From Desulfuromonas sp. (GTDB lineage Bacteria > Desulfobacterota > Desulfuromonadia > Desulfuromonadales > Desulfuromonadaceae), in assembly GCA_002869685.1 (NCBI GenBank), contig PKUE01000117.1, positions 1-57,330 of the forward strand: DNA of 57,330 bases, written 5' to 3'. The position numbers and the translations under genes are program-made. The notes beneath the pieces were generated by a model. It had not been told where the DNA came from and did not search any database. It saw only the letters and a program-made list of their open reading frames with translations. This document shows, one piece after another, positions 31,517 to 38,224 of the stretch. The first letter of the stretch is position 1; the number at the start of each line of letters is the position of its first letter.

Positions 31517-31729
31517 TCAGTCATCCGTTCCAAGAACAATGGCTGATGCTTTGATGATGGCATAAGCCGTTTTTCCCGGAGCCAGCTTCAGTGCCTCGGC
31601 GGCATCTTTAGAGATGATGGAAGTGATCTCCTCGCCGCCAGGCAGGGTCAGAATGACTTCGGCATTGACTTGGCCGAGGATAATTTCTTTAACGGTTCCC
31701 TTGAGGGTGTTGCGTGCGCTGAGTTTCAT
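31517..31729 (-). CDS. Mop/TOBE-domain molybdate-binding protein
   Basis: This 70-residue single TOBE domain is a molbindin. It matches the family's SARNTLKGTVKEI start and the EITSIIS and AYAIIKASAIVLG strands. Such proteins oligomerise and hold several molybdate or tungstate anions in the cytoplasm as a store. I start at ATG 31729 because GGAG lies in the preceding 12 nt; ATG 31741 is upstream in frame. It lies 72 bp downstream of modA on the same strand, so the two may be co-transcribed. Confidence 0.92.
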   Translation of the reverse strand: MKLSARNTLKGTVKEIILGQVNAEVILTLPGGEEITSIISKDAAEALKLAPGKTAYAIIKASAIVLGTDD

Positions 31730-31813
31730 GCTGGTCTCCATCCTGAGTAGGTTAGATATTACTTTTTATTCTATTTTGTAGTGTAGCAGGACGTTATTGG
31801 TGTGCAAGTTTGG

Positions 31814-32551
31814 CTAGCGGATGACGAAGCCATATTTTTGCAGGATGCGACTCGCCTGATCCGTCGACAGAAATGAGGCAAAAGCGATCGCTTCGGGATT
31901 TTTTTCTCCCGATAGGGTCAGTGCTCGCGGATAGGTGACTTCAGTGTAAAGTTGCTGCGGAACTTCTAACAGGATTTGAGCATGTTGTGCTAGTAAAGCG
32001 TCGGTTTTGTAGACGAACGCTCCATCGACTTCTCCTCGGTCAGCGTAAAGCAGGGCCTGACGCACATCTTTGGCGAGAACCAATCGTGATTGCAGTTTTT
32101 CATAGAGTCCGGCGGCTTCGAGGGCCTGTTGCGCGTATTGACCGGCCGGAACACTCTTCGGGCTACCGATGGCCAGAGTGTTCAATGCGAGAAGGTCGTT
32201 CATCGTTGTCACGATTTTTTCCGGGTTGCCGGTGAACACCAGAGTATTATGGGCGAATGTTTGAACCTGTTCAGCGTTAATCAGGTCGTTATCAACCAGG
32301 TATCTCATCCATTTTGGGTTGGCCGAGATATAAAGTTCCGCCGGTGCACCTTGATAAATCTGCTTTGCCAGCGCCCCTGATGAGGCGTAATTGGGCAGGA
32401 TCGTGGTTTCAGGATGTTGTTCTTGGAATAGGCTGATCAACTCATTGACGGCATCAGTCATACTGGCCGCGACGGAAATATTGATGGTGCCCGCGTTAGC
32501 GGAACTGATCATAAGTAAGGTCAGTACAAGGGCAAGAACGTAACGTCGCAT
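31814..32551 (-). CDS. modA: Periplasmic molybdate-binding protein ModA
   Basis: This 245-residue protein has a signal peptide (MRRYVLALVLTLLMISSANA). The mature part is typical ModA: VAASMTDAVNELISLF, NYASSGALAKQIYQGAPAELYISAN, and GAFVYKTDAL near the C terminus, contributing oxyanion-binding Ser and Tyr positions. It should deliver molybdate (or tungstate) to a ModB permease. No modB or modC is within the window: the downstream gene is mop and the upstream gene is a divergent regulator. AAAGGA precedes ATG 32551. Confidence 0.93.
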   Translation of the reverse strand: MRRYVLALVLTLLMISSANAGTINISVAASMTDAVNELISLFQEQHPETTILPNYASSGALAKQIYQGAPAELYISANPKWMRYLVDNDLINAEQVQTFAHNTLVFTGNPEKIVTTMNDLLALNTLAIGSPKSVPAGQYAQQALEAAGLYEKLQSRLVLAKDVRQALLYADRGEVDGAFVYKTDALLAQHAQILLEVPQQLYTEVTYPRALTLSGEKNPEAIAFASFLSTDQASRILQKYGFVIR

Positions 32552-32663
32552 GACAACTTTATCCTTTCTAAAAAAAAGAGGGGAATGCTATCGTTGAGGC
32601 TGTCATAGCTTCGCTGGCCAAGCTGTCCTAGCCTGGGATTCGGGAAACGGCCGCAATTGAGCC

Positions 32664-32692
32664 TTGACCCGCTGTTGTTAATGTGTGATACA
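32664..32692 (+). promoter_or_regulatory. Promoter of the XRE-PBP regulator
   Basis: TTGACC (32664-32669) and GATACA (32687-32692) are separated by 17 bp. The -10 box is buried in the first 16-bp inverted repeat, so a protein bound there would block RNA polymerase. Confidence 0.5.
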
Positions 32693-32720
32693 ATCATGTC
32701 ATGGTGATATAGTTATGTCA
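32686..32720. promoter_or_regulatory. Tandem operator pair at the regulator start
   Basis: Two 16-bp copies of one motif are present: TGATACAATCATGTCA (32686-32701) and TGATATAGTTATGTCA (32705-32720). Starts are 19 bp apart. Each is an imperfect inverted repeat TGAYA-N6-TGTCA. The first covers the -10 box and the second covers the ATG of the regulator at 32715, as expected for autorepression. The same motif recurs upstream of the TonB receptor gene. Confidence 0.7.
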
Positions 32721-33779
32721 AAAGAAAACTTTGTACTGCAGAATACCATTCGCTCGAAACGGGAAAGTTTGGGGTGGTCGCAACAGGACCTGGCTGATCG
32801 TGCCGGGCTGTCCCGTACCGGGATCAGTGCCATTGAAGCCGGACGTTTGATCCCCTCGACGGCCGCTGCGTTGGCACTGGCGGCTGCCTTTCATTGTCGG
32901 GTTGAAGATCTGTTTGTCCTGGCGGGCAAAGATACTGCGGAATGGGCCTGGCCTCCGACAGCGAATCCCGTTCGTTACTGGCGGGCCATGGTCGGGTCAC
33001 GTCATTTGTTGTATCCTGTCGAGCATAGCCCTTTGGGAATGGTGCCTCATGACGGCGTGTGTCGCGATGGCAAGTGTATCGACCATCCTTTTGCCGAACC
33101 CGTTCGTACTCTGGTGATTGCCTGCTGTGATCCGGCGGTTGGATTGTTGGCCACGGAGTATGCCCGGCAGACTCCTTTTCGTTTGGTGGTTTTGCAACGC
33201 TCCAGTCGTGTGGCCCTGCAACTCCTTGAACAGGGGTTAGTGCATGCTGCGGGGATTCATCTGTGCAAATCCGATGAAGAGCAGGGTAACCGTACCGCAG
33301 CAGCTGAAATTCTTAATAGCGATTTCCACCTGATTCGTGTTGCCGACTGGGAAGAGGGACTGGCTTTGTCGCCGGGTTTAGCCCTCAACGGTGCCGGAGC
33401 CCTCCTGCGCTCTGATTTACGCTGGATTGCCCGTGAAGAGGGCTCCGGAGCGCGACAGGTTCTTGATGAGCTCCATGATCATAATTTCGTTCCCACCCAT
33501 ACCGTCAATGATCACAGTTCCGTTGCCCTGGCCATCCGGAGTGGTTTTGCTCAGGCCGGTGTTTCTCTCCGCCTTGTTTGTGCACAGGAGGGACTTGATT
33601 TTATTTCCGTACGGCAAGAAGCCTATGAATTCTGCATCCTCGATTCAGCGATTGGCGACCCGCGTGTCACGGCATTAATCGATGTTGTGCGCTCTGCTCA
33701 ATACCGCAAAATCCTCTCCGAACTTCCGGGCTATCAAAGCGAAAAAACCGGCGAACTCGATTCGGTAGAAAACGGTTAA
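32715..33779 (+). CDS. XRE-type regulator with molybdate-binding-protein-like domain
   Basis: This 354-residue one-component regulator carries a Cro/C1-type helix-turn-helix at residues about 5-60 (SLGWSQQDLADRAGLSRTGISAIE). The rest (about 105-335) is a PBP-like domain of the COG1910/PF12727 type: CCDPAVGLLATEYA, HAAGIHL, REEGSGARQVLDE, SVALAIRSGFAQAGV. This domain is related to periplasmic molybdate-binding proteins and is also found fused to MoeA and ModE-type proteins. I start at ATG 32715; a GTG at 32685 would add 10 residues and read through the operator. It is divergent from modA. The ligand is inferred, not shown, to be molybdate, tungstate or a cofactor intermediate. Confidence 0.85.
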   Translation: MSKENFVLQNTIRSKRESLGWSQQDLADRAGLSRTGISAIEAGRLIPSTAAALALAAAFHCRVEDLFVLAGKDTAEWAWPPTANPVRYWRAMVGSRHLLYPVEHSPLGMVPHDGVCRDGKCIDHPFAEPVRTLVIACCDPAVGLLATEYARQTPFRLVVLQRSSRVALQLLEQGLVHAAGIHLCKSDEEQGNRTAAAEILNSDFHLIRVADWEEGLALSPGLALNGAGALLRSDLRWIAREEGSGARQVLDELHDHNFVPTHTVNDHSSVALAIRSGFAQAGVSLRLVCAQEGLDFISVRQEAYEFCILDSAIGDPRVTALIDVVRSAQYRKILSELPGYQSEKTGELDSVENG

Positions 33780-33887
33780 TTCCCCCTCCTCCTCATTCTC
33801 TTAGGTTTGCGCGCGGCTTACGTCGCGCTCGTCATCCTCTGCCAACTCGTTTGAGTTGACGGGCAAGCGGAGTTGCATATTTTTCAT

Positions 33888-33922
33888 TGACACAATAGTG
33901 TCCTGATGGCACGATACTGTCA
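33888..33922. promoter_or_regulatory. Tandem operator pair upstream of the TonB receptor gene
   Basis: TGACACAATAGTGTCC (33888-33903) and TGGCACGATACTGTCA (33907-33922) match the operator at the regulator start. The start-to-start distance is the same 19 bp. The central bases differ between copies but the TG.YA...TGTC arms are kept. Confidence 0.7.
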
Positions 33923-34080
33923 CGCATTGGGTTTTCTCGCCAACGGTGTCTGTTTTCCCTGCCGAGGCTATGGCAGCCTCACCCCTTTCCAATTTATTGA
34001 TTTTTAGAACTCTTTTTTTCAGATGTCTTAGCCGGGCGAATGCGGCAAGTCGCTGTGTGGTGTCGTGATTCGACCTGTGT

Positions 34081-34096
34081 TGACACGATACTGTCA
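34081..34096. promoter_or_regulatory. Third operator copy upstream of the TonB receptor gene
   Basis: TGACACGATACTGTCA is the best-formed copy of the 16-bp motif, with arms TGACA and TGTCA. It is single and ends 52 bp before the receptor start codon. Confidence 0.65.
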
Positions 34097-34148
34097 TGGA
34101 TGGCAGCGCCGCCACGGACATGGCTTTTTCCAATCGGGAGTGGATTGA

Positions 34149-36011
34149 ATGAACGTTGCATGGATGAAAACACTGGCAATGGTGGTTCTGGCAATGATGA
34201 TGGTGTCACAAGGGTATGCTCAACAGGGTATTGTGGAAATGTCTCCTGTAGTGGTGACGGCCACCCTGGCAGAGCAGCCGCAGGATCAGGTTGCCGGAGC
34301 CGTCGAAGTGATCGATCAGCAGATGATGGTGGCGGTGGGTGCAGAGACGGTTTCAGAGGCTTTATTGTATGCGGCGGGTGTCATGCTGACCACAGCCGAA
34401 GGGCGCAATGTCGGGACCTCCATTCGTGGTCTGGGAAGAAATCACACTCTGGTGCTGGTGGATGGACGCAGGCTGGCCGCCAGTTTTAAAGCGCAAATGG
34501 ATGTGGCGCAAATTCCGCTGACCATGGTGGAACGGATTGAAATTCTGCGAGGACCGGCATCCGCACTCTATGGAAGTGATGCCATTGGTGGTGTGGTCAA
34601 CATTATCACCAGTGTGCCGACCCGCGATTTTACCGCCAGAGCGGATGTGCGGGGCGGATTTGGCCCCTCCGCCGAACATCTGGGGCAGGCGTATATCAGT
34701 GCCGGGGGTGAGACTGTTCAAGCGAATCTTGGTGTTGCCAGGTCGGTGAAGGACGACTGGGACGGTGACGGCGCTTTGCCCGATGATATTGATGAAACCT
34801 CGTTGGAAAGTGTGCTGGGTCGTGCCGCTGTACAAGTCAGTTCCCGTCAGCAACTGATATTTGGTGGGGAATTCAGTCATTTTGAACGCGATGGCGGACG
34901 CTATTATCTGAATCAAGATCGTGATTATGGAGCCGACGACCGTCGCTGGGGAGGATTTGCCGAGTACCATCTGAATCAGGGGGAACCGCTTTCTGCCATG
35001 CTGCGTGGTTATGTCAGTCAGTATAAAACCACCTCATCGTTTGACCCGCCTACATCAAAAAGTGAGGAGCGGCGGCGGTTGATTCAGGGCGATGGCCGGG
35101 TTGTATATTCGGTCAGCAATCGGCTAGTCCTCACCAGTGGCGGTGAAGTGCGTGAAGATAGTCTCAAGGGTGATGACATGGATCATGACGAGGAAAAGGT
35201 GCTCAACAGTGCATTATTTACCCAGGCACAGTGGCAGTTCACCCCGCGATTGAGTCTCGTCGCCGGACTTCGATTTGACCACTATGAGGATTTTGGCGGG
35301 CATTTTTCGCCGCGCGCAACATTGAGTTGGCAGCATGGCCATGGCCGGGTGTGGGTCGGTTATGGAGAAGGATTCAGGGCACCTAACCTCAATGAGCTTT
35401 ATGTGACATCATTGTTGAAAAAAGGGCTGGAAACCTATCAGAACAATGAGAACTTGAAGGAAGAAACTTCACAAAGTTACGAGGCCGGAGCCGGGTTTGT
35501 CCTGGGCAAAACGAGAAGCCAGCTGGTGGTTTTTCGCAGTGAAGTTGATGATCTGATCGCCAGCGAATTGCAATCCGTCAGTGGCAAATACAAAACCTAC
35601 ACCTATCAGAATATTGATGAAGTTCGTACTCAGGGCGGGGAGTTCGAATTCTCCGCCGCGCTGCCAGCAGCGGTTCGTTTCGTCAGTCAGGTTAGTTATG
35701 TTGAGAGTGAAAATCGTGAAACAGGTGAGGAACTGGCCGATGAACCACGATGGAAAGGGGGCGTCTCCGTAACATGGCGAGAGCCCTGGTGGCAGATCTC
35801 CACCCAACTGCGCTGGTTGTATTTCGGCACCTCGGAAGATGGTGAGGGCAATGCGCAGGATGGGTATCGCTTGACGCACCTCTATCTCGAAAAAACACTG
35901 ACACCGAGTGTGACTCTGTACGGCGGCGTGGATAACCTGCTGGATGAGGAACACGATGATTTTACCCTGTCACCACGCGGATATTATATCGGCATGACGT
36001 GGGAGTTTTAA
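34149..36011 (+). CDS. TonB-dependent outer membrane receptor
   Basis: This 620-residue gated outer-membrane porin has a signal peptide ending in QGYAQQ, a TonB-box-like stretch (MSPVVVTAT), and a plug domain of about residues 45-155 (SIRGLGRNHTLVLVDGRRL, VERIEILRGPASALYGSDAIGGVVNII). A 22-strand type beta barrel follows, ending in the terminal Phe (YYIGMTWEF). It is BtuB/CirA-sized. The ligand is unknown. Its coupling to a periplasmic binding protein 5 bp downstream and the shared operator with a molybdate-type regulator suggest an oxyanion or its chelate. GGGAG precedes ATG 34149. ExbBD/TonB are not in the window. Confidence 0.92.
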   Translation: MNVAWMKTLAMVVLAMMMVSQGYAQQGIVEMSPVVVTATLAEQPQDQVAGAVEVIDQQMMVAVGAETVSEALLYAAGVMLTTAEGRNVGTSIRGLGRNHTLVLVDGRRLAASFKAQMDVAQIPLTMVERIEILRGPASALYGSDAIGGVVNIITSVPTRDFTARADVRGGFGPSAEHLGQAYISAGGETVQANLGVARSVKDDWDGDGALPDDIDETSLESVLGRAAVQVSSRQQLIFGGEFSHFERDGGRYYLNQDRDYGADDRRWGGFAEYHLNQGEPLSAMLRGYVSQYKTTSSFDPPTSKSEERRRLIQGDGRVVYSVSNRLVLTSGGEVREDSLKGDDMDHDEEKVLNSALFTQAQWQFTPRLSLVAGLRFDHYEDFGGHFSPRATLSWQHGHGRVWVGYGEGFRAPNLNELYVTSLLKKGLETYQNNENLKEETSQSYEAGAGFVLGKTRSQLVVFRSEVDDLIASELQSVSGKYKTYTYQNIDEVRTQGGEFEFSAALPAAVRFVSQVSYVESENRETGEELADEPRWKGGVSVTWREPWWQISTQLRWLYFGTSEDGEGNAQDGYRLTHLYLEKTLTPSVTLYGGVDNLLDEEHDDFTLSPRGYYIGMTWEF

Positions 36012-36016
36012 CCGGG

Positions 36017-37045
36017 ATGAAAGTGATTGTGTTTATTGTCGTCGGACTCTGGCTGGCCGGGCCGGTAGACGCCCGGGAAATTGTCGATATGGCCGGGCGC
36101 ACTGTTGATGTACCGGATCATATCGAGCGAGCGGTGGGTGGTGTGGCACCGGTCAGTTGGATGATCTATGCTGTGGCACCGACGAAGTTGGCGGCGTTTA
36201 CTTCGGCGCCATCGGCAGCAGATTGGCATATTCTCGATCCAAGTCTCAAAGAACGACCTGTTATCGGCAGTTTTCTGGGGAACGGCGGAGTCAATCAGGA
36301 AACGCTTCTGGCCATCAAACCCGATGTGGTGATCTTCTGGGGCTGGGGAGCCTCAGCTGCGAGCCAGCGCTGGGTCGAACAGCTTGACCGCTGGAAGATC
36401 CCCGTGGTGTTTGTCCGCATGGAGCGGTTGGAAGATTATCCACGGACTCTCGAATTTCTCGGCAACCTTCTCGACGTACCAGAGCGGGGGCAACGTCTGG
36501 CGCAGTACGGACGAGATGTGATGACCCATGTGGCTGAACGGATCAGTGGGCTTTCAGATACTAACCGGCGGCGGGTCTATTACGCCCAGGGCTCTGATGG
36601 TTTGGAAACAGAGCCGGAGCAATCGTTTCATGCCGAACTGATCGGGCTGGCCGGAGGTGTCAATGTACACAAGGGGACGCTTAAGCAGCGTCGGGGGCGT
36701 GAACGAATTTCTCTGGAGCAGCTGATTGCGTATGATCCCACGGTCATTCTTGCTGGGCGGCGCGAATTTTATGCCCACGGTGTGCAACGCGCCGGTTGGG
36801 AGCGTGTTGATGCTGTGCGCAAGCAGCAGGTATGGTTGATTCCCGATACGCCACTCAACTGGTTTGACCGTCCCCCTTCGATGATGCGTTTTCTCGGGCT
36901 GCAGTGGCTGGCACAGCGTCTTTATCCGCAGCGGTTTGACGAGGACCTGGTGAGTGTGACGCAACATTTCTACCAGCTGTTTTTTTCTGTTGAGTTAGAT
37001 AGCACATCAGCCCAAGCGATTATTGGCGGGACGGCGGAGCTATAA
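36017..37045 (+). CDS. Class III ABC substrate-binding protein (BtuF/FepB/MolA fold)
   Basis: A periplasmic binding protein of 342 residues. ATG 36017 gives a signal peptide (MKVIVFIVVGLWLAGPVDA); the frame also opens at GTG 35999 inside the receptor gene. The mature part begins REIVDMAGRTVDVPDHIERAV, the usual start of PF01497 proteins, and has IKPDVVIFWGWG, LEQLIAYDPTVILAGR and FDRPPSMMRFLGLQWLA. This fold carries siderophores, haem, cobalamin and, in Haemophilus MolA, molybdate and tungstate. It lies 5 bp after the receptor gene, so the two work on one ligand. No permease or ATPase follows. Confidence 0.85.
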   Translation: MKVIVFIVVGLWLAGPVDAREIVDMAGRTVDVPDHIERAVGGVAPVSWMIYAVAPTKLAAFTSAPSAADWHILDPSLKERPVIGSFLGNGGVNQETLLAIKPDVVIFWGWGASAASQRWVEQLDRWKIPVVFVRMERLEDYPRTLEFLGNLLDVPERGQRLAQYGRDVMTHVAERISGLSDTNRRRVYYAQGSDGLETEPEQSFHAELIGLAGGVNVHKGTLKQRRGRERISLEQLIAYDPTVILAGRREFYAHGVQRAGWERVDAVRKQQVWLIPDTPLNWFDRPPSMMRFLGLQWLAQRLYPQRFDEDLVSVTQHFYQLFFSVELDSTSAQAIIGGTAEL

Positions 37046-37333: not shown

Positions 37334-38224
37334 GTGGATATTCGCCGACTCGAAGTTTTTTGCAAAGTTGTTGATCTCGGAAGCTTTACCCGTGCTGCTG
37401 AAGCCGCATTGCTTTCCCAGCCATCTGTCAGTGAGCATATCCGCACACTGGAGGAACACTATAACGAGAAGTTGATCGACCGACTCGGTCGTCGGGCGCA
37501 GCCGACGCACGCCGGAAAAATCCTCTATCAATACGCGCGGCGGATTATTCAGCTTAAAGACGAGGCCGATCAGGCGATCAAACAGTTCCAGGGCAATCTG
37601 TCCGGTAAATTAGCTGTGGGGGCCAGCACGATCCCCGGTGCTTACCTGTTGCCTTCTTTGATTGAAGGGTTCAAATCGAATTATTCCAGCATTGAACTGA
37701 TGCTGAAAATCTCCGGAACGACTGCGGTTGTTGAAGAGATTCTCAAAGGGACACTGGAGCTTGGCCTGATTGGAACGATGTGGAAGGATCAGCGTGTCGA
37801 GTGTGAAGAGATGTTTTCCGACGAACTGGTGTTGACCGTGCATCCCGATCACCCGTGGGCACAGCGCTCTTCCGTTTATCCTGGAGAGTTGCTGGACACA
37901 CCGTTTATTTTGCGTGAGCCCGGTTCCGGCACCCGTATTGAGATGACTCAAGGGCTGAAAAGAGCCGGTGTCGAGCCGTCCCATTTTCAGGTTGTTGCGG
38001 AAGTTGGAAGCAACGAGGCTGTGCGCCAAGGGGTGCGTTCGCGGATCGGCGTGGCGATTTTATCTTCACTGTCTGTTGCCGAGGATGTTGAACGTGGCAG
38101 CCTGGTGACCGTTCCCATTGAGGGCTTGACGATGCCGCGCTCCTTTTATCTGGTTCAGCGGCGCAATCGCCAACTCAGTCCGTTGGCCACCGCTTTTTAC
38201 AACCACCTCAAAGAATCCTGTTAA
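37334..38224 (+). CDS. LysR family regulator (selenium-metabolism-associated type)
   Basis: This 296-residue LysR protein has an N-terminal winged helix-turn-helix (FTRAAEAALLSQPSVSEHIRTLE) and a two-lobe effector domain (GKLAVGASTIPGAYLLPSLI onward). From memory it is closest to the CysB-like LysR proteins that accompany selenium genes in delta-proteobacteria and Firmicutes, though no sel gene is in view. GTG 37334 follows GGGAG. The 288 bp before it hold no recognisable gene and no copy of the 16-bp operator, so its link to the upstream uptake genes is unproven. Confidence 0.82.
   Translation: MDIRRLEVFCKVVDLGSFTRAAEAALLSQPSVSEHIRTLEEHYNEKLIDRLGRRAQPTHAGKILYQYARRIIQLKDEADQAIKQFQGNLSGKLAVGASTIPGAYLLPSLIEGFKSNYSSIELMLKISGTTAVVEEILKGTLELGLIGTMWKDQRVECEEMFSDELVLTVHPDHPWAQRSSVYPGELLDTPFILREPGSGTRIEMTQGLKRAGVEPSHFQVVAEVGSNEAVRQGVRSRIGVAILSSLSVAEDVERGSLVTVPIEGLTMPRSFYLVQRRNRQLSPLATAFYNHLKESC

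Follow-up and report, generated by a model that had tools for sequence, protein, structure and literature searches.

We analysed a 57,330-nt stretch of Desulfuromonas sp. DNA (contig PKUE01000117.1, assembly GCA_002869685.1), hereafter the window, and concentrated on the locus at 31517-37045. The preliminary description had placed mop, modA, a COG1910-type regulator, a TonB receptor and a BtuF-fold protein together here, and all five were found at their positions. We refer to the XRE plus PBP_like (COG1910-type) regulator as REG, to the TonB-dependent receptor as TBDT and to the class-III binding protein as SBP. The features of the locus are:

31517..31741, minus strand: mop, a molbindin with a single Mop/TOBE domain (TIGR00638, 81.5 bits, cut-off 55)
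31814..32551, minus strand: modA, molybdate ABC transporter binding protein (TIGR01256, 209 bits, cut-off 62.5)
32685..32702, no strand: operator 1, GTGATACAATCATGTCAT, holding the -10-like CATGAT of the modA-facing promoter
32704..32721, no strand: operator 2, overlapping the REG start codon and holding the -35-like TTGACA of the modA-facing promoter
32715..33779, plus strand: REG, XRE-type HTH plus PBP_like, COG1910-type (PF01381 (HTH_3), PF12727)
33887..33904, no strand: operator 3, TTGACACAATAGTGTCCT, holding the -35-like TTGACA of the TBDT promoter
33906..33923, no strand: operator 4, ATGGCACGATACTGTCAC, holding the -10-like CACGAT of the TBDT promoter (spacer 17 nt)
33926..33982, plus strand: leader block of 57 nt, a candidate 5'UTR RNA element common to modA operons
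34080..34097, no strand: operator 5, TTGACACGATACTGTCAT, 174 bp downstream of operator 4
34149..36011, plus strand: TBDT, plug plus beta-barrel (PF07715, 92 bits; PF00593, 158 bits)
36017..37045, plus strand: SBP, class-III (BtuF/MolA-fold) periplasmic binding protein (PF01497, Peripla_BP_2)

The N-terminal MSKEN of REG, read from its ATG start, is kept in every orthologue aligned. SBP was listed from a GTG at 35999, but the ATG at 36017, which sits right behind the TBDT stop, is the likelier start. TBDT has the plug and beta-barrel of a TonB-dependent receptor and, read from the sequence only, a TonB-box-like SPVVVTA behind its signal peptide; energised transport is predicted. A LysR gene neighbouring SBP (37334-38224) scores above NCBIfam NF040786 (selenium metabolism-associated LysR) and is kept in this place across the genus at 93-95% identity.

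One palindrome, TGACAYGATNNTGTCA, occurs in five copies over the divergent REG/modA promoters and the TBDT promoter, arranged as two tandem pairs of 18-mers (32685/32704 and 33887/33906, each 19 bp apart) and a single copy at 34080. Operator 5 has a like layout in four genus relatives, and the pair over the REG start was seen at nearly all REG loci scanned. The first pair covers two divergent promoter-like sequences, TTGACA-17-CATGAT toward modA and GTGATA-17-TATAGT toward REG, and the promoter-like sequence of TBDT reads TTGACA-17-CACGAT. Because the operator pairs sit on the promoter-like sequences of modA, REG and TBDT, the same operators can gate all three.

Given that the seed pattern was derived from the window's own sites, a matrix trained only on sites from outside the genus and a strict-pattern search provided the fairer tests. 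With the genus-excluded matrix, four of the five operators were the top four sites of the window (18.9-23.3 bits), compared to a mean best site of 13.3 bits in simulated sequence of the same composition; operator 2 (32704), at 11.9 bits, is weak on its own and is the conserved partner of 32685. The strict 16-mer, TGRCAYRATNNTGYCA, matched the window's own genome at 33907 and 34081 only, was confined to this locus in the genus relatives G027, G033 and G034 and to two receptor loci in genome G112, and gave stray matches in G035, G116 and G117. Operators were additionally observed upstream of TBDTs in trans, with REG on another contig in G126 and ~2 Mb away in G112. The earlier suggestion that a five-copy operator ties the regulator to the receptor is borne out, both by the copies at the REG/modA and TBDT promoters and by those at TBDTs distant from REG. 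Absence of the operator from other genomes with the same pair had been named as a ground for rejecting the regulon; the opposite was observed, the operator being present in every other examined genome with an orthologous receptor or SBP. Operator-like sites on four further contigs of the own genome (C19, C51, C115 and C129) adjoin no metal genes and were taken as chance.

Rodionov and co-workers saw none of the known ModE sites at Desulfuromonas mod operons and raised the possibility of an unidentified signal there (PMC545781), for which TGACAYGATNNTGTCA is a candidate. The locus resembles ModE-regulated modABC in the presence of modA and mop and in a similar regulon logic, and a true ModE adjoins the related receptor module of G490. 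REG, however, consists of HTH_3 and PBP_like domains without TOBE domains, as opposed to the HTH_1 plus TOBE/Mop of ModE, and its operator is unlike the ModE consensus given in PMC545781.

Among 136 genomes of the order, 14 carry an orthologue of REG (63-88% identity) and 12 a member of the SBP family; 11 have both (hypergeometric P 9e-13, shared ancestry ignored). The SBP family and the regulator do co-occur across Desulfuromonadales, which is part of the comparison that the preliminary description had proposed. Where REG has no TBDT beside it, it mostly adjoins modA or modABC (G106, G109, G126 and G131, and also the MAG locus L090); G043 is not among the clear cases. In planctomycete relatives of ~50% identity the start of REG still carries a near-perfect operator (L093 2701-3776; L094 1526-2592), and the neighbours are modA- or MoaE-like, one of these relatives lying near MoaE. 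The predicted structure of REG (pLDDT 59.6) was too poor for use. A second XRE plus PBP_like family, REG2, is ~30% identical to REG (L035 5504-6622; L201 4847-5959; L209 9566-10678) and stands between modABC and the receptor module in another family.

Closer inspection of the TBDT promoter revealed a feature overlooked in the preliminary description, the leader block at 33926-33982. In an alignment of the REG-TBDT intergenic region from five genomes of the genus the block is nearly invariant and lies right behind the operator pair. It reappears behind the operator pairs of modA operons (G106, G126 and G131) and behind those of receptor operons (G126 and G116). Outside the window, copies of the block lie at L076 8980-9038, L226 7571-7626, L228 7915-7972 and L229 4292-4344. 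A sequence-only model (R2), built from seven TBDT and three modA leaders with the operator left out, gave 15 matches when run on 136 genomes, namely the 10 training leaders and five untrained ones. Of the latter, one is the leader that precedes the G113 orthologue of SBP (40 bits), and the other four each lie directly upstream of modA (G105, 43.7; G113, 28.7; G039, 28.1; G090, 25.6 bits), with modBC following at three of these four sites. Searches at E 1e-25 found no REG in G105, G039 or G090; operator-like pairs lie upstream in G090 and at the modA site of G113.

The block had no match in Rfam, and the Moco-II RNA motif (RF01713) did not match at the window leader. We consider the block a candidate for a new cis-regulatory RNA linked to molybdenum or tungsten (Mo/W). 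It is possible, though in our judgement the lesser prospect, that it is instead a DNA feature of the promoter or operator, a reading that competes with the RNA and leaves the regulon untouched. RNAalifold supported one hairpin of four pairs, in which the changes are G-U only with no double-sided compensatory change, and the block usually lies close behind the operator pair, both of which fit a DNA feature. Conversely, the block begins ~10 nt past the -10 box, it precedes modA in two genomes that yielded no REG (G105 and G039), and in G113 it lies ~360 nt downstream of the operator pair and behind a Moco-II RNA, which favours a transcript element.

Moco-II RNAs occupy a comparable position in a sister family, where RF01713 matches (44-61 bits) immediately precede the G113 orthologue of SBP and also stand ahead of methyltransferase-TBDT operons in G109, G113, G116 and G117. 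The window leader shares with them its place upstream of orthologous SBP or module operons but is a different, unlisted sequence block, and no Moco-II RNA was found in the window, its own genome or the genus. Elsewhere in the order, most Moco-II copies either lead into a gene for a molybdopterin-binding-domain protein, with a xanthine-dehydrogenase-type molybdoenzyme gene next in line, or lie close to formate-dehydrogenase-like genes. A few G112 copies adjoin genes without an assignment. One family of the order has these RNAs, commonly two or three at a locus, in front of a cluster of a MoCF_biosynth protein and a xanthine-dehydrogenase-type molybdoenzyme (L126-L136).

When SBP was compared to solved chains, the closest were 4pag (221 bits) and 4ovk, neither with an assigned function, and the closest characterised chain was MolA (3psa, 77 bits, ~26% identity), with BtuF at ~40 bits. 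The AlphaFold2 model of SBP (pLDDT 88.8) likewise matched 4pag, MolA (TM 0.72-0.77) and 4ovk best and BtuF far lower. By sequence and modelled fold, SBP thus appears to be of the MolA type, with MolA 3psa as its best characterised match, and binding of molybdate or tungstate is predicted. MolA had been put forward as the precedent for this fold, and the comparison upholds it over BtuF. The expectation that the nearest relatives of the pair would lie outside cobalamin, haem and siderophore systems held for SBP; the receptor itself is closest to catecholate-siderophore receptors, and its nearest solved relatives are the Colicin I receptor (131 bits), FepA-type receptors and BtuB. Other module loci use other receptor families, so receptor homology leaves the cargo unfixed.

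MolA binds molybdate and tungstate, and the Haemophilus MolBC-A system to which it belongs is a low-affinity molybdate system (PMC4031551); the fold alone is therefore no argument for scavenging. MolBC-A of Haemophilus influenzae (HI1470-1472; PDB 3psa/3psh) resembles the present case in its class-III/BtuF-fold SBP and in the FecCD-type permease of module relatives. It differs in that the Haemophilus system as described is without a TonB receptor (PMC4031551), whereas here TBDT shares the SBP operon, and in that no permease or ATPase gene adjoins SBP in the window genome; the cognate FecCD permease and ATPase are found in the operon at module loci of other families. Genus relatives, two of them with single-contig genomes, encode a FecCD importer at a locus with REG2 and a radical-SAM gene, and we infer that this importer serves SBP. 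In the window's own assembly the contig with REG2 stops just past the radical-SAM gene, and the missing importer may accordingly be a gap. The single good FecCD of the assembly, in an ABC-SBP-FecCD cluster on C139, was not adopted as the partner, one of the four cobalamin riboswitches of the own genome lying ahead of that gene run. A radical-SAM protein whose C-terminal domain resembles Peripla_BP_2 is encoded next to methyltransferases and the module (L035 6714-8567, contig C86 of the own genome; L044 17903-19750).

The receptor and binding protein recur well outside the order. At E 1e-40 the SBP profile matched 30 of 395 genomes sampled from the phylum, and among the 20 module loci that we read a TBDT was present in all and a FecCD permease with ATPase in nearly all, often together with TonB, FmdE, one or two methyltransferases and a radical-SAM protein. 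This TBDT-SBP-FecCD-ABC-FmdE-methyltransferase module recurs beside ModE-modABC across Desulfobacterota. G490 carries TBDT-FmdE-TonB-SBP-FecCD-ABC followed on the same strand by ModE (two TOBE domains) and modABC; G341 and G384 have a REG2-type XRE-PBP_like regulator between modABC and the module; and modABC is divergent from the module in G239. These four of 20 genomes, with modA no more than 10 kb from the module, compare to 0.16 expected (P ~2e-5, or 6e-4 with the congeners G341 and G384 counted once). Most copies of the module at phylum level have no mod gene nearby, and the cargo may thus vary. G287 carries ModE-modABC and nitrogenase-iron-protein-like genes (L210 10465-16040) at a distance of ~15 kb from its receptor module.

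The reading that we favour, and hold to be probable, is that the locus is a Mo/W acquisition regulon with TonB-energised uptake, and its regulation by Mo/W status is almost certain as judged from the DNA. It draws on gene content, on the operators and leader common to the modA and TBDT-SBP operons, on conservation and on linkage to mod genes, and from these we infer the direction of control, the REG ligand, the cargo and the partner importer. The preliminary description had proposed a TonB-dependent molybdate/tungstate uptake regulon, to which the shared modA/TBDT leader, the Moco-II RNAs and the ModE-modABC adjacency elsewhere lend support, with Mo/W transport itself as the presumed activity. 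The cargo would be a Mo/W oxyanion, thiometallate or chelate. On chemical grounds, thiomolybdates or chelates are plausible forms of Mo in sulfidic sediments.

In this regulon REG, an XRE protein of repressor type whose ligand domain resembles periplasmic binding proteins, would sense cytoplasmic Mo/W status. It would bind the tandem operators, which cover the -35 and -10 boxes at the promoters of modA(-mop), REG and TBDT-SBP, repressing these promoters when Mo/W is plentiful and leaving them open when it is short. The leader behind the operators may add a second control, common with modABC. With TonB energy, TBDT would bring the scarce Mo/W species, be it an oxyanion, thiomolybdate or a chelate, through the outer membrane. 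SBP would then pass it on to an importer of FecCD type (MolBC-like) whose genes lie elsewhere; for genus relatives the REG2/radical-SAM locus is the most plausible place.

A special case of this reading, somewhat unlikely in its specifics, is an organic Mo/W cargo (a complex with a molybdophore, or a species bound to a pterin or otherwise ligated) made or dismantled by the associated methyltransferases, FmdE and radical-SAM protein. Several families encode these enzymes, the last with its C-terminal SBP-like domain, together with TBDT-SBP-FecCD-ABC, and different receptor families fill the same slot, as expected if chelates vary; the window locus, however, is without the enzymes, which in the genus sit at the REG2 locus. 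We regard as improbable the import of a ferric (catecholate) siderophore or other iron chelate whose uptake simply shares its regulation with that of molybdate, for example for joint production of iron-rich molybdoenzymes or nitrogenase. The nearest solved structures of TBDT, the Colicin I and FepA-type receptors, point toward iron, and Azotobacter has TonB-dependent siderophore receptors under metal-dependent regulators of alternative nitrogenases (PMC9542535), yet the operators and leader are the same as those of modA, SBP is closer to MolA than to siderophore SBPs, and the module stands beside ModE-modABC in other families. A cobalamin/corrinoid uptake pair (BtuB/BtuF) lying beside the mod genes by chance is very improbable and was dropped. 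The receptor and SBP superfamilies are those of that system and the top NCBIfam names are TonB-B12 (199 of 599.7 bits) and BtuF (58.7 of 234 bits), but both scores fall far under the equivalog cut-offs, and the operator and leader are common with modA. A scan of module loci from 24 genomes or records, like that of the window locus, found no cobalamin riboswitch upstream, although the own genome has four elsewhere.

The usual assumption is that molybdate diffuses across the outer membrane through porins. Due to the receptor and SBP sharing the DNA and leader signals of the molybdate pump, this anaerobe probably takes up Mo or W actively at the outer membrane and not by pore leakage. An energised gate of this kind had been said to be new if it existed. 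Our search of the open literature for TonB with molybdate or tungstate returned no paper that directly describes a TonB receptor as part of a molybdate regulon, and to that extent the claim stands; receptor-mediated entry of Mo-siderophore complexes has already been proposed for nitrogen fixers (PMC10780190), which gives the idea some precedent. That proposal, for azotochelin and protochelin, shares the energised outer-membrane receptor and a proposed Mo cargo (PMC10780190), but there the metal is said to pass to ModA after entry, whereas here the receptor has its own class-III SBP and the operator and leader of modA.

More broadly, and only tentatively, there may be a dedicated TonB-energised Mo/W route whose module (receptor, MolA-like SBP, FecCD importer, FmdE, methyltransferases and radical-SAM/SBP fusion) is conserved across Desulfobacterota and which in this lineage would be controlled by a new XRE-PBP regulator and an undescribed leader RNA common with modABC. 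With a receptor placed under the switch of the molybdate pump itself, some anaerobes from settings that are sulfidic and poor in Mo would seem to spend energy on capturing Mo/W outside the cell. The locus gives testable roles to the orphan FmdE, radical-SAM/SBP fusion and COG1910-type regulator families, and offers a candidate new leader RNA as well as a basis for re-annotating many so-called iron or B12 receptors. On an Azospirillum brasilense plasmid, an SBP-permease-ATPase relative annotated as an iron transporter (L231 8965-13406) has as its neighbour msrPQ, which encodes a molybdoenzyme as catalytic subunit, and is possibly a MolABC-like system.
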